Positions 33,102-39,340 of a stretch of 64,000 nt of DNA are shown here, piece after piece. The DNA is taken from contig JADHXR010000006.1 in the NCBI GenBank assembly GCA_016782865.1, forward strand, positions 16,464 through 80,463, given 5' to 3'. The stretch's first letter is position 1. Every line of letters begins with the position of its first letter. The notes under the pieces are model-generated. The model saw nothing but the letters and a program-made list of their open reading frames with translations. It had not been told where the DNA came from and did no database searches. Position numbers and translations under genes: made by a program. Origin of the DNA: Phycisphaerae bacterium (lineage in GTDB: Bacteria; Planctomycetota; Phycisphaerae; Sedimentisphaerales; Anaerobacaceae).

Positions 33102-33454
33102 TGGAGGCGGGGGGATTCGAACCCCCGTCCCGAGATGCTTCAAGGCAAGCGTCTACATGCATAGTCACTTGATTGTTTTTTCGCCTTACCAAACACCAAG
33201 CGACAGGCACTTAGCTCGGCTATTTCGGTGAGTTGTCGCCTCGCCGGCCCGAAAAACCGGTTCGGCCAGCCTGCTGTTTGACGCCCTTACCTAACCCACA
33301 GGCAAAGCCAGGCAGGACGGGCCGCTAATTTAAGCAGCCATGCGCAACTGTGAGTTGCCAATTAAAAATTAGTTGTCGGATGATTAGCCAGGCCAACCGA
33401 CATCCTGGGCATGCAACTTATCTCTCCGACATCCGGTCGAAGCCATTCGCCCCC
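33102..33454 (-). ncRNA. ssrA: Transfer-messenger RNA (tmRNA)
   Basis: On the reverse strand the 3' end has the T-arm GGGGGTTCGAATCCCCC and the acceptor half CGCCTCC-A, which pairs with the 5' end GGGGGCG (one GU pair). CCA is not encoded. The tag frame, read on the reverse strand from 33359 to 33330, is probably GNSQLRMAA followed by TAA, with the typical AA ending; the resume codon assignment (GGC) is inferred. The RNA rescues stalled ribosomes together with SmpB. Total length of about 353 nt is normal. Confidence 0.92.
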
Positions 33455-35471: not shown

Positions 35472-35534
35472 GGTAAGATTCCTTTAGCCGATACTTAGTC
35501 ACTATTTTGACTTAGTGTACCAGGAAATTGACCG

Positions 35535-36383
35535 ATGAGAAGAAAAAGTGAGAAAATGAGAAAAAATAATTTGGAAATTTGCGAGCACGTCGATGCGTGG
35601 TTGCATTTTTGTGCCAGGACGTATTCAACTCGCACCACCGAAGCATATAGCGGCACGATAAATCAGCTTCTGCGATTTTTATCGGCGAACGAATTATCGT
35701 TTTCGACGGAAACGGTCGAGGCGTGGCTTGACTACAAACTGGAAAATGGCGCGAGCCGTTCGTCGTGGAATTCATGGCTCGTACACATTCGCTCGTTTTG
35801 CGCCTGGCGTAAGAAAAGATACGGAGTCCCATCAGTAGTTCATGGAAAAATCACACGGATTCGCCAGGACCCGCCTCACAGACGGATGATTACGAAAAAA
35901 GAATATGGTATGTTGCTCGCTGCGACGTCGGGAATTTCTAACGATATAATCAGATTCTTAGCAAACACTGGCATTCGCAAAGATGAGTTTCGTCGATTGA
36001 CGTGGGGCGCTATGAAGAAAGATCGGCTGCACATCGTTGGAAAAGGTCGTAAGTTTCGCGTCGTGCCGTTAAACAGCTCAGCGAGGACAGTTATATCGCA
36101 TTATCTGCGTGGCGACGACGACGATCCATTTCCGCCGAGTATTTTGTACGAATCGCGAGAAGGCTGCTCGTTTTTGATTCGCAAGACTTGCAGAAGAATC
36201 GGCATTGAGCGAGCGGGCTCACATTCGTGCCGCAGATTCTTTGCCACCCAATGCCCAGAAAATGGAATGCCTATGCCCGTCCTCCAACGTATATTAGGCC
36301 ATAGCGACATTTCTACAACGATGCAATACGTTCGGCTCAGCGACGAAGCGTTGATTGGCGCCACTGAATGTCTTGTCGGATAG
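35535..36383 (+). CDS. Tyrosine recombinase (XerC/D-like integrase)
   Basis: A 282-residue recombinase. The N-terminal SAM-like domain (about 15-105) contains TTEAYSGTINQLLRFL. The catalytic set is complete: Arg148 (NTGIRKDEFRRLTW), Lys173 in the beta-hairpin (GKGRKFRVVPL), His230-x2-Arg233 (SHSCRRFFATQ), His256 (ILGHSDISTTMQYV) and nucleophile Tyr265. The additional segment typical of integron integrases is absent. Thirteen bases after the stop lies the first of three palindromic 10-7-10 sites, presumably its recombination sites. It is the only recombinase in the window and is adjacent to the cassette array. Confidence 0.93.
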   Translation: MRRKSEKMRKNNLEICEHVDAWLHFCARTYSTRTTEAYSGTINQLLRFLSANELSFSTETVEAWLDYKLENGASRSSWNSWLVHIRSFCAWRKKRYGVPSVVHGKITRIRQDPPHRRMITKKEYGMLLAATSGISNDIIRFLANTGIRKDEFRRLTWGAMKKDRLHIVGKGRKFRVVPLNSSARTVISHYLRGDDDDPFPPSILYESREGCSFLIRKTCRRIGIERAGSHSCRRFFATQCPENGMPMPVLQRILGHSDISTTMQYVRLSDEALIGATECLVG

Positions 36384-36395
36384 TGACGCAGAATC

Positions 36396-36422
36396 GTAAA
36401 CATACTACATTAGTATGTTTAC
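36396..36422. repeat. Recombination-site-like palindrome S1 (recombinase-proximal)
   Basis: GTAAACATAC, a 7-base spacer (TACATTA) and GTATGTTTAC. Perfect 10 bp arms with a 7-base centre are the usual geometry of a tyrosine-recombinase core site. It lies 13 bases after the recombinase stop codon, in the position an attI site takes in integrons. The outer 20 bp arm found at the two other copies is absent here. Confidence 0.65.
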
Positions 36423-36495
36423 TGTTTGTGTTGTGAGGCGATTGACGGGCGTCGTTCGTCGTTCGTCCTCGTCCTTTATTGTCGCGGCTGTGGCT

Positions 36496-36771
36496 TCAAC
36501 GGTTGCTCTTGCTATTAGGCGGCAGACCCTGGCTAGATTGGGCTGTACGACGCGCCGTACCTGTTTTAACCACAATTGTTTGTTCATTATCTCCGTTATG
36601 TATTGTCCCAAAGAACGCATCGAACTTCACCGTATTCTTTGTGACCAATAGATTGCCTTCGCCATCATAAGCTATGTTTGTGACAAAAGGCCCGGCATTG
36701 GTACAGCCGACAACAAACATGAGAGCAGCCAACAGACAGCCAAACAATACATTCTGAATTCTTGATTTCAT
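36496..36771 (-). CDS. Small lipoprotein (cassette 1)
   Basis: A 91-residue protein with signal sequence QNVLFGCLLAALMFVVGC, whose lipobox Cys is at residue 23, and a mature part FVTNIAYDGEGNLLVTKNTVKFDAFFGTIHNGDN. GAAAGGG lies upstream of the ATG. Function unknown. A 13 bp perfect inverted repeat (GACGAGCGTCGTG / CACGACGCTCGTC) lies just upstream at about 36810-36860. Confidence 0.65.
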   Translation of the reverse strand: MKSRIQNVLFGCLLAALMFVVGCTNAGPFVTNIAYDGEGNLLVTKNTVKFDAFFGTIHNGDNEQTIVVKTGTARRTAQSSQGLPPNSKSNR

Positions 36772-36956
36772 CGTAAAACCCTTTCAAATAACTTTTCTAA
36801 AATTATGTGACGAGCGTCGTGCGTTCTGGCGCTTGTGATAAATCTACACGACGCTCGTCGAGGTGCGAAAACTAATCAGGATTCTTTGTCTTTCGGATCG
36901 CCATCGAGCTATCCTATGCAATCATTGCGGAAAGACTCTCCTTCTTCTTCTATCTC

Positions 36957-37373
36957 TTACCCTCTTTCCTTCTTCTCCGCTTCTTTTTCCATATTCTCAA
37001 CACACGTTTTCAGACGTTTGAAACAGTCCCTAATCGCATCTATTCCCTTTTGGCCAATATACGCAAGTACGTCTATATCGTTATCTCTTTCGAATTCTAG
37101 CGGCAATTTATAAATCTGAGGCACCTCAGTTGAAAATTTATGTTCTGTTCGAATGTCTTCAAGGCCCTTCTTGCAGGCTTCTAGGTCATGAAGTGTATCC
37201 CTGATAGGTGGGCTAAGGGGAGTGGGACATATCTTGTCAAAGCATTTGCGGAGTTCGTCGAGTTCATCTTTTATCCTCTCAGTTTTTTTAGGAAAACTCT
37301 TAGGCAGACCTTCGAAGAATTCATCACTAAAAAACTCTCCTGCCATTTTAGGTGGTTTTTGTTCCGCACACAT
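36957..37373 (-). CDS. Unknown charged protein with shared MCAEQ leader (cassette 1)
   Basis: A 138-residue soluble, highly charged, mostly helical protein (KSFPKKTERIKDELDELRKCFDKI; FKRLKTCVENMEKEAEKKERG). I start it at ATG 37373 (MCAEQKPPKMAGEFF) because GGGAGACGAATT and the first five codons are nearly identical to those of the gene at 38507, marking the real start; the frame extends further back to 37448. No family recognised. Its promoter region lies between the start and site S2, so it is transcribed towards the recombinase. Confidence 0.6.
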   Translation of the reverse strand: MCAEQKPPKMAGEFFSDEFFEGLPKSFPKKTERIKDELDELRKCFDKICPTPLSPPIRDTLHDLEACKKGLEDIRTEHKFSTEVPQIYKLPLEFERDNDIDVLAYIGQKGIDAIRDCFKRLKTCVENMEKEAEKKERG

Positions 37374-37470
37374 AATTCGTCTCCCTATGCTTGAATATGG
37401 TTTCCACGAAATCAGACAGTTGCAATTCACTATCGGCTTATTCTTCACGCCGCTTTATTGGGTTTATGCT

Positions 37471-37574
37471 GGTTTTCAGTGGTTCGACGCCTGGTGTCAT
37501 TGCAAAGTGTAAACATACTGACTGAGTATGTTTACAAAAAGCCAGAAAATCATGCGTCGGACCACCGAAAAGCC
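37471..37574. repeat. Recombination-site-like palindrome S2 with outer arms
   Basis: The core GTAAACATAC-TGACTGA-GTATGTTTAC is at 37509-37535. At exactly 18 bases on each side are outer arms: GGTTTTCAGTGGTTCGACGC (37471-37490) and, inverted, GCGTCGGACCACCGAAAAGC (37554-37573), matching at 17 of 20 positions. The whole is a symmetric 104 bp site, which is consistent with recombinase core and accessory binding sites, or with a folded single-stranded site. Confidence 0.7.
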
Positions 37575-37584
37575 AAACAATCGC

Positions 37585-37722
37585 CTAACGCAGCTTCTTG
37601 CATTGCTTGCACAGGCGTTTACCACCTGTGCCTTGCCGACGATTCTTCGTTTCGATGTTGTTCCCTACTGTACAATTACGGTTGTCATGATACACCTCTG
37701 AGTCCTTAGCGTGCCAGGCCAT
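37585..37722 (-). CDS. Small zinc-ribbon-like protein (cassette 2)
   Basis: A 45-residue protein. The start at ATG 37722 is set by AAAGGAG seven bases upstream. YHDNRNCTVGNNIETKNRRQ followed by GTGGKRLCKQCKKLR has one His/Cys pair and one C-x2-C pair, typical of small conserved stand-alone zinc ribbons. Function unknown. It is last in the reverse-strand gene order of cassette 2, next to site S2. Confidence 0.6.
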   Translation of the reverse strand: MAWHAKDSEVYHDNRNCTVGNNIETKNRRQGTGGKRLCKQCKKLR

Positions 37723-37796
37723 TGGCTTCTCCTTTGAAATCTCAAGTTCCATTTGACAACGTTTCGACGTTCGACGGGATGTTGATGAAACTGAAC

Positions 37797-38057
37797 CTAA
37801 AACCAAGATTGTTCTTGGCAGTAATCCGTGCCTCTGTCAGTAAGACTATAGAGTTTTGTGTGAAAATTTGTCGAATATTCACCAGAGATCATCTTCATGG
37901 TTTTCTCCAGTTTATGAATGCGACAGTCGATATCATTCTCGCTAAAATTAGTTCTGAGGCGGTTGAAGATAATGCCTATCGCGAGCGCCGTGCGTGTAGC
38001 ACGCTCCCAAAGGAGTTTAAGTATAGCTTTATCCAGTTCTATTAGATTCTCACACAT
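37797..38057 (-). CDS. Small helical protein, possibly winged-helix, with MCEN leader (cassette 2)
   Basis: An 86-residue protein. ATG 38057 follows GGGAGACGGATT, a variant of the leader shared with the two MCAEQ genes. The sequence (LIELDKAILKLLWERATRTALAIGIIFNRLRTNFSENDIDCRIHKLEKTMKMI, then KLYSLTDRG) has the helix-helix-wing rhythm of a small winged-helix DNA-binding domain. That reading is inference. It lies 117 bases after the end of the next upstream cassette gene. Confidence 0.55.
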   Translation of the reverse strand: MCENLIELDKAILKLLWERATRTALAIGIIFNRLRTNFSENDIDCRIHKLEKTMKMISGEYSTNFHTKLYSLTDRGTDYCQEQSWF

Positions 38058-38174
38058 AATCCGTCTCCCTACTATACCATTATATCGCCGATGGCCCGTC
38101 GTCATTTCAAACGTCGTTCGATGAAGCCTGGTTACATTCAAAGGCGGGCGTCGAGATGTTGCGAAATGCTAAGC

Positions 38175-38507
38175 CTACTTCGCATCTTTTCTTGGATACG
38201 TTCCTGGAAATACACGCGGCTCGCCTCTTGACTCAGTAAGACGCCAGTCTGTCCTCATCCTCATGTCGCGATCAAGTTCTTGACCAAGCAATACGTCTAG
38301 TTCACCACTGATAAACCCGGCTTCATGCAGTTCCTCAATCGCGGCTTTGATTTCTTCTTCCGTAAAACGATTATTCGCCAGCAAGGGTTCGTAGATTCCA
38401 TTTTCCGCGTGCAGCACATATTTCATACTCACGCGATTCTTACTCTCGCGATAGAGATCAAGTATAGCCTCTGCTGCTTCTAATAGTGTTATTTGTTCCG
38501 CACACAT
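38175..38507 (-). CDS. Unknown protein with shared MCAEQ leader (cassette 2)
   Basis: A 110-residue protein: MCAEQITLLEAAEAILDLYRE at the start, RFTEEEIKAAIEELHEAGFI in the middle, and a basic tail (RGEPRVFPGTYPRKDAK). The middle looks like a winged-helix or helical regulatory fold. Its leader from GGAAACTATATTAAAGCATAG to the fifth codon is almost identical to that of the cassette 1 gene at 37373, although the remaining proteins are unrelated. It is the first gene of cassette 2 when read from site S3. Confidence 0.55.
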   Translation of the reverse strand: MCAEQITLLEAAEAILDLYRESKNRVSMKYVLHAENGIYEPLLANNRFTEEEIKAAIEELHEAGFISGELDVLLGQELDRDMRMRTDWRLTESRGEPRVFPGTYPRKDAK

Positions 38508-38739
38508 AATTCGTCTCCCAACTATGCTTTAATATAGTTTCCGCGAAATTCGTGCCGTTGCTGTTTCGCTCCTCTTATTAAAGAACAAGAATATACTATT
38601 GCGTGATTGGTGGCGAGACGTGATGTTTCGCCACCAAATCGCGATTGCCGCAACAAGCGGCGGAGCTAACGGCTAACACCGTTAATGCATTTCTCTCATC
38701 ATCGACTCATTTCTCGCGGTGATTCACTGGAATTATGCT

Positions 38740-38804
38740 GGTTTTCAGTGGTCCGACGTCTGGTGCCATTGCAAAACGTAAACATACTTATCGACTATGA
38801 CGAC
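38740..38804. repeat. Recombination-site-like palindrome S3 (distal, half degenerate)
   Basis: Outer arm GGTTTTCAGTGGTCCGACGT (38740-38759), exactly 18 bases, then GTAAACATAC, a 7-base spacer (TTATCGA) and a right arm CTATGACGAC that keeps only TATG of the expected sequence. No right outer arm is present. It probably marks the distal end of the cassette array. Confidence 0.65.
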
Positions 38805-38925: not shown

Positions 38926-39123
38926 TTACGGGACGTTGTGGTCGTTACCTTTCCCAATTGGGATTATTAGTACAGCCCTACCAACAGCGACCCCAACTTC
39001 CTGATCCGTCCATTTACTCCCATTAAATTTTGGTGTAAGAATCACTGCGAGAGCATCCATAGCGAACAGCGCCTTCTCTATTTCATCCTGCCATTCCTTA
39101 TACGCTGCAATCGTATGGTCCTT
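38926..39123 (-). pseudogene. Truncated TIR-domain gene
   Basis: The frame encodes AYKEWQDEIEKALFAMDALAVILTPKFNGSKWTDQEVGVAVGRAVLIIPIGKGND, which is the middle of a TIR-like domain: the conserved W-x2-EIE helix, LTP strand and S-x-W-T-D-x-E helix. The N-terminal strand and the rest of any effector are missing. Upstream, the same frame runs into the dispersed CGTCATTCC-type repeat, which seems to have replaced the 5' part. TIR proteins often serve in anti-phage defence; this copy is probably non-functional. Confidence 0.6.
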
Positions 39124-39340
39124 CCCGCTCGAACGCAGATTCCTCCGCTGCGTCCCGATTTCATCGGGACTCCGGTCGGAATGACGGCGTGAGATCCTGC
39201 CATATCCGGCGCGGACAAGTGTTCCCAATTTTCATTTCCAGCGCGGACTTCTACTCCCAAGTGTCATTTCGAGCGGAGCGAAGCCTTAAGCCCTGAGCGG
39301 AGTCGATGGGGAAGTCGAGAAATCTGGCTCACTTGCTACA
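39124..39340. repeat. Dispersed repeat block
   Basis: Contains TCCCGATTTCATCGGGA (a short palindrome), CTCCGGTCGGAATGACG, TCATTTCGAGCGGAGCGAAG and CCTGAGCGGAGTCGATGGGG. Related wording occurs near 8827, 13056 and 17232. These are non-coding interspersed repeats; here they separate the TIR fragment from the GIY-YIG gene. Confidence 0.5.

Follow-up and report, generated by a model that had tools for sequence, protein, structure and literature searches.

In integrons, the attI site lies beside the 5' end of intI, the cassette genes point away from it, and every cassette gene has an attC site at its 3' end. Cargo that carries no enzyme of its own is found between the ends of an element, and stacked, in cis-mobilizable elements in tandem accretion and in mobile insertion cassettes. 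The dif (pdif) modules of Acinetobacter plasmids form, as far as the available portions of the sources go, rows of small modules bounded by tyrosine-recombinase sites of the type 11 bp-short variable spacer-11 bp (PMC13141974, PMC10132070). The Tn916-like element Tn1549 is described in the portion at hand as having inverted ends of 11 bp that enclose 5-7 variable bases, and as depending on the edge base (PMC5871717). Here, we describe a short array in a 64,000-nucleotide stretch of an uncultured Phycisphaerae bacterium (contig JADHXR010000006.1; "the window" is this whole stretch), in which a predicted XerA-like recombinase gene and two modules of 1.1-1.2 kb lie among four sites of the form 11-5-11, two of them perfect and two degenerate. 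From this arrangement, we hold it to be about evenly balanced that the recombinase excises and inserts the modules without needing their spacers to match. Such a system was not described in the open-access literature searched, a scope that excluded subscription papers and preprints.

The recombinase gene and the core sites

The array is made up of the following features.

35485..35511, no strand: S0, degenerate site TAGCCGATACT-TAGTC-ACTATTTTGAC, left array edge (site scan and synteny break)
35535..36383, plus strand: recombinase gene, XerA-like tyrosine recombinase, 282 amino acids (Pfam, NCBIfam, alignment)
36396..36422, no strand: S1, perfect core site, spacer T-ACATT-A (pattern match)
36423..37508, minus strand: module 1 (interval S1 to S2)
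37509..37535, no strand: S2, perfect core site, spacer T-GACTG-A (pattern match)
37536..38777, minus strand: module 2 (interval S2 to S3)
38778..38804, no strand: S3, spacer T-TATCG-A, left half intact, right half degenerate (pattern match)

The order of the array is S0-rec-S1-module 1-S2-module 2-S3. A sequence-only reading of the window had already placed three of these sites correctly, but missed the degenerate fourth, S0. Its description of S1 and S2 as 10-7-10 sites stands: both match the pattern GTAAACATAC-N7-GTATGTTTAC with 0 mismatches, and 100 dinucleotide shuffles of the window gave zero matches, even when 3 mismatches were allowed. S3 has a degenerate right half, as had been reported (6/10 bases, or 4 mismatches, next to an exact left half), and the reported intervals of about 1.09 and 1.24 kb correspond to 1086 bp (S1-S2) and 1242 bp (S2-S3) from the coordinates. 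The gap between the recombinase stop codon and S1, given there as 13 bases, is 12 bases.

The spacers TACATTA (S1), TGACTGA (S2), and TTATCGA (S3) have the edge T and A in common and unrelated middles. As the edges are shared, the inverted repeat extends to 11-5-11, and the core site reads better as GTAAACATACT-N5-AGTATGTTTAC. The unrelated middles mean that exchange between these sites would be forbidden for any recombinase that requires matched crossover bases. Nor does the site recur genome-wide without a recombinase, the case that the sequence-only reading had named as telling against itself: at up to 3 mismatches, the 10-7-10 site is absent elsewhere in its own 7.25-Mb genome (assembly rated 84% complete). 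The guanine-cytosine (GC) content is 48% in the recombinase gene and 43-45% in the modules, compared with 51-61% in most neighboring stretches measured; the 340 bases to the right of S3 are likewise low, at 45%.

The recombinase gene is complete and lies where the same reading had put it. Its product matches Phage_integrase (E 4.8e-23), has a SAM-like N-terminal domain, and carries the residues that we take to be catalytic. It reaches no NCBIfam cut-off; XerA ranks best with 117.6 bits (cut-off 220), followed by XerC (97.1), XerD (86.5), and the integron integrase model TIGR02249 (56.0, cut-off 265), the last in agreement with the earlier statement that the enzyme is not IntI. With the XerD model, two other genes in the same genome score 323 and 308 bits (cut-off 329.6) versus 84.5 for the array gene, which argues that the latter is not the housekeeping Xer gene. 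In an alignment, a short mid-domain loop is common to the recombinase and ten homologs of related genomes, and is not shared by the two Xer-type genes. By these comparisons, the predicted enzyme is minimal and XerA-like, and differs from the two genes of Xer type that the genome has outside the array.

At the limits set, homologs of the recombinase occur in 8/98 other relatives and in 6/88 other family genomes. A search of ~5.8 billion proteins, with the recombinase and the module genes ORF1 and ORF3 as queries, returned eight recombinase relatives past its own cluster, at 24-33% identity. Four open reading frames (ORFs) of 78-126 amino acids in the same genome (L133-L136) match the C-terminal part of XerD, indicating that it contains dispersed short fragments of tyrosine recombinases. 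In the part of a published survey available to us, no dif site was predicted in its single Planctomycetes genome (PMC3025954).

Module ends, leaders, and cargo

Within the modules, the following features were recognized.

36496..36771, minus strand: small ORF, 91 amino acids, N-terminus lipoprotein-like by eye, no family match in profile scans
36957..37373, minus strand: ORF1, 138 amino acids, starts MCAEQ, no relative past its own cluster
37367..37385, minus strand: ORF1 leader GGGAGACGAATTATGTGTG (genome search)
37471..37490, minus strand: left outer arm of S2, resembling the end of an insertion sequence (IS) (alignment, shuffles)
37554..37573, plus strand: inverted copy of the arm, to the right of S2 (self-comparison, alignment)
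37585..37806, minus strand: small ORF, 73 amino acids from a TTG start, a piece of it 72% identical over ~100 bp to genome G133
37797..38057, minus strand: ORF2, 86 amino acids, starts MCEN (ORF list)
38051..38069, minus strand: ORF2 leader GGGAGACGGATTATGTGTG (genome search)
38105..38143, minus strand: possible remnant of the outer arm from a third head, now lost (shuffle-scored alignment)
38175..38507, minus strand: ORF3, 110 amino acids, starts MCAEQ, no relative past its own cluster
38501..38519, minus strand: ORF3 leader GGGAGACGAATTATGTGTG (genome search)
38740..38759, minus strand: left outer arm of S3, IS-end-like (alignment, shuffles)

The sequence-only reading had reported a 20-bp arm 18 bases to the left of the cores of S2 and S3. 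Both copies are in place; what it missed is the inverted copy to the right of S2, through which S2 becomes 73% self-complementary over 99 bp. For single-strand folding, S2 has z-scores of -6.5 on one strand and -6.8 on the other, compared with -3.2 for S1 and +1.2 for S3.

When the array DNA was compared with 161 genomes of the order (its own included, and with no more than two candidates scored in each), matches were found in three besides its own. The match in G133 is a 100-nt piece, while those in G107 (two places) and G117 are 31-bp copies of the S3 arm. The latter copies are IS ends, and the G117 copy encodes an rve transposase. Parts of this rve IS are present in 22/89 family genomes, the array's own included, with at most four candidates scored per genome; its end is also found in G001, a genome of the same genus, and one copy has both ends, with a total of 963 bp. 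The scores of S2-left, S3-left, and S2-right against the IS end were matched by 0, 0, and 3 of 1000 shuffles, versus 63, 841, and 520 of 1000 for S1-right, S1-left, and S3-right.

As the arms resemble a DDE IS end of related genomes, the main rival to movement by the recombinase is that a DDE transposase, which tends to land beside recombinase sites, moved non-autonomous IS-like elements (mobile insertion cassettes) whose remains are modules 1 and 2, and that the recombinase has no part in moving them. The distribution of the IS among related genomes fits this explanation, as do the inverted arms at both ends of module 2 (module 1 has an arm on one end), and there is a known parallel, since members of the IS1202 family target dif sites and are described, in the section of the source consulted, as landing 5 bp from them (PMC10132070). 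The array arms, however, have not retained the outermost 16 bases of the IS, so that its tips are missing, and S1 is perfect though armless. The bases flanking module 1 (ACATT/GACTG) and module 2 (GACTG/TATCG) differ, leaving neither with a target-site duplication, as expected if no DDE insertion occurred. No transposase gene was recognized in the array by profile scans, and the flanks of the IS copies that were inspected by eye (12 bases each) hold no palindrome like those of S1-S3. While we read the outer arms as probable IS-derived module ends from these alignments, we consider it unlikely, though well short of negligible, that the modules themselves are IS relics.

Several copies of the IS drew attention in their own right. 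One complete 963-bp copy (L127:4645-5607) starts one base past the end of a tRNA-Ala gene. Targeting of tRNA 3' ends was rejected as a general property, since a tRNA stands at the IS end in 1/12 stretches; in two more of the 12, the tRNA lies at a distance of 0.2 and 2.6 kb. G001 and G036 (L107, L119) contain the initial 92-101 bases of the IS stretch, with no match to its transposase part detected, like solo ends.

The arms are part of a larger unit. S2-left and S3-left belong to one 104-nt repeat with 78% identity, referred to here as the head. The S3 copy holds a 135-nt insertion, after which the similarity to the S2 head returns and reaches the ORF1 and ORF3 start codons. By eye, this insertion (in the stretch 38520-38700) contains a number of hairpins that are perfect or nearly so, among them one in which a stem of 10 bp encloses TTGGTGGCGA. 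A 19-nt leader, GGGAGACGRATTATGTGTG, has exactly three copies in the genome, ahead of ORF1, ORF2, and ORF3, and its sole other match has three mismatches. The head repeat, the leader before three module genes, and the T/A spacer edges had all been overlooked in the sequence-only reading. A third head may have been lost, with a candidate decayed arm left before the ORF2 leader: the candidate's score was matched by 5/1000 shuffles against the S2 head and by 268/1000 against the S3 head, so that it has support from the S2 head only. Hexamers resembling -10 elements were seen by eye ahead of the leaders; in a promoter scan, no head was flagged, and the number of hits did not exceed that in shuffles (4 versus 5.1).

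The module genes point toward the recombinase, with site and leader at the gene 5' end. ORF1 and ORF3 share their first five residues, MCAEQ, and then diverge. Between ORF2 and ORF3 there is a weak similarity (33% identity across 63 residues, with E 4e-4 for this one comparison), and both, judged by eye, look like small winged-helix proteins.

Possible movement of the modules

We infer the mobility and capture of modules from the anatomy of the array. The recombinase would bind the sites and exchange strands between them, with no need for the five central bases to match. A circular module with one site would then insert at an existing array site and split it into two, leaving one junction with the crossover bases of the target and the other with those of the circle. 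Repeated insertions of this kind, without matching crossover bases, would produce rows of sites with unrelated spacers, as observed. The recombinase gene itself may have entered as the same kind of module, and each head may supply its own promoter for expression of its module's gene.

The left edge of the array bears on this scheme, because the recombinase gene would, if S0 is real, have a site at either end (S0 and S1), as the modules do. A scan of the window for the inner span ATACT-N5-AGTAT, chosen only after S0 had been noticed, found four places at up to 1 mismatch: S1, S2, S3, and 35491, within S0. By our own arithmetic, ~2 chance matches are expected per 64 kb, and none fell outside the four sites. 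S0 has 9/10 bases of this inner span and 13/22 of the full consensus. The case for it is mainly positional, as the full-length score is weak and the 89% DNA synteny with G001, which spans the neighboring gene, stops exactly there, at 35485, 50 bases before the start of the recombinase gene.

The same edge allows for a second alternative, in which everything from S0 to S3 forms a single small integrated element, mobile now or in the past only as a unit, with S1 and S2 as internal scars or control sites and modules that are not separately mobile. The left edge S0 coincides with the end of synteny, the outer sites S0 and S3 are the degenerate pair and have the variant ACTAT in common, and the contig counts of the recombinase and modules are similar. 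On the other hand, it is the inner sites that are perfect, the spacers of S1 and S2 differ, and head and leader recur at the module borders, a sign that modules were added or duplicated more than once. We regard such an element as improbable, if still worth keeping in mind.

It is very unlikely that the palindromes serve transcription, as operators or terminators within a gene cluster that was duplicated locally, and have nothing to do with recombination: although S1, S2, and S3 are all located past gene 3' ends, the plus-strand score of S1 is terminator-like, and the weak similarity of ORF2 and ORF3 makes a local duplication likely, S1 sits between two convergent gene 3' ends with nothing there for an operator to control, S2 and S3 are ~135 and ~270 bp from start codons, the stems are AT-rich, S2 and S3 are not flagged as terminators, S3 has lost a half, and a terminator needs no 22/22 identical stem bases around unrelated loops.

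Movement of modules by the recombinase is weighed down by a number of observations. Both S3 and S0 are degenerate, and the three outer arms resemble an IS end beyond almost all shuffles, as given above. The outer bases of S0 are unremarkable; its score of 13 is reached by 1.8% of 50-base stretches outside the array, and a second place, 21 bases beyond S0, also scores 13. No empty site was found, and G001 shows none, as its DNA past 35485 is unrelated to the right flank of the window; no right-hand boundary of the array was found either. Neither ORF1 nor ORF3 has relatives past its own cluster in the protein collection, and the contig counts of the clusters (recombinase 9, ORF3 9, ORF1 8) hint at fixed content and give no hint of turnover. 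Finally, the array was found as a single instance. There was no second array among the order genomes at the depth scored, and the site pattern was matched in 1/396 other genomes of the class, in G128, with 3 mismatches and inside a reading frame (the 397 genomes scanned, the array's own included, are a sample of a larger class). A reversed control pattern gave matches in three class genomes. The variable modules beside orthologous recombinases that the sequence-only reading had proposed to look for were not found at 10 homologous loci (30-46% identity), which carry no comparable repeated sites.

At these loci, a scan for shared palindromes gave none in 9/10. The tenth, L022, has five weak imperfect palindrome pairs, all upstream of its recombinase, and downstream of the recombinases nothing comparable was found by a palindrome scan or by a repeat scan, each of which covered 9 of the 10 loci. 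L021 has a single GC-rich inverted repeat 56 bases past its recombinase, and L024 a downstream 23-nt repeat pair with copies unlike S1-S3. For the closest homologs, in G036 and G117, the recombinase stands alone among other chromosomal genes, as judged by eye from ORF lists; a 6-7-6 inverted repeat seen by eye right after the G036 recombinase was taken as chance.

Two exact 10-7-10 copies in the genome_contigs collection, from Yersinia nurmii and Moellerella wisconsensis (L035, L036) were set aside as coincidence, as they lie inside corresponding frames of 140/141 amino acids that look Nudix-like. Viral contigs held no exact copy of the site and three matches to a recombinase pattern, none of them confirmed as a relative. 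In plasmids and phages, no DNA match to the array was found, and the recombinase matches were all below 60% identity, with ten listed in each at 24-30%.

Much of the DNA from ~33.4 to 42.6 kb differs between the same-genus genomes, indicating that the region is variable. A transfer-messenger RNA (tmRNA) gene lies at 33102-33454 on the minus strand, 2 kb left of the array, and is kept in G001 together with the next gene. Just right of S3 is a TIR-domain-like ORF (38926-39228, minus strand), with 27.2 bits for Pfam TIR_2 (cut-off 28) and weak matches to ThsB and ThcB4. This ORF may be a fragment, as its start overlaps a short repeat that recurs genome-wide.

Comparison with known systems

With integrons, the array shares a recombinase beside a row of small, site-bounded genes, and S2 can be folded as a long single-strand hairpin. 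The sequence-only reading was right that the sites are other than attC and bound gene modules beside a tyrosine recombinase, but its analogy to attI and attC breaks down on the layout. The recombinase is not of the IntI family, and the sites are not placed as attI and attC are: the simple site lies 3' of the recombinase gene, which itself, if S0 is real, has a site at either end, the module genes face the recombinase, the heads are at their 5' ends, each module carries a leader at the end where its site lies, and the arms are IS-end-like. In the known cases of cis-mobilizable elements and insertion cassettes, the units are large elements or single IS-bounded genes, whereas the array has two small modules and one recombinase. 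Elements of the SE type share the use of tyrosine recombinases, with a varying 6-bp crossover and circles of module size; SE-6945, in contrast, is 7.1 kb long, each SE has two recombinases, attB is without inverted repeats, and the portions of the SE literature available describe no arrays.

Tn916-like elements, in the part of the source at hand (PMC5871717), resemble the array in the conserved T/A edge and in exchange without homology. The corresponding 11-bp inverted ends with T/A edges are present in S1 and S2 and, for their inner part, in S3 and S0. Tn916-like enzymes, however, possess a domain for arm binding and act on a single large element, while the array has an enzyme of 282 amino acids, in which SAM-like and catalytic domains were recognized and no arm-binding domain, and modules of 1 kb. 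No match to conjugation families was found among the array ORFs scanned.

In layout, the array resembles the dif modules, where IS elements can also adjoin the sites. As described in the parts of the sources used (PMC13141974, PMC10132070), those modules rely on host XerC and XerD, have asymmetric sites in alternating orientation, and recombine between identical or near-identical spacers. The array, unlike them, has half-sites that are identical inverted repeats and a recombinase gene inside it, and its three good sites have the unrelated spacers ACATT, GACTG, and TATCG.

The reading that fits these comparisons best is one of Tn916-like chemistry combined with a layout like that of dif modules, and not an integron. 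A more far-reaching proposal, which we put forward as doubtful, is that of a self-contained and undescribed cassette platform, in which a minimal Xer-type recombinase, itself a cassette, would carry out homology-free exchange at symmetric 11-5-11 sites, with cassettes that bring their own site, promoter, and leader, and with ends recruited from IS ends. If true, this would add a third way of capturing genes as modules to the two represented by integrons and dif modules. Should the modules move at all, the array would offer a simple system for asking how an Xer-type recombinase escapes crossover matching and how cassette arrays begin, and another case of IS ends directly beside recombinase sites, comparable to the IS1202 family at dif sites. 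It would join the array layout of dif modules to the homology-free exchange of Tn916-like elements, by means of a much smaller enzyme encoded within the array.

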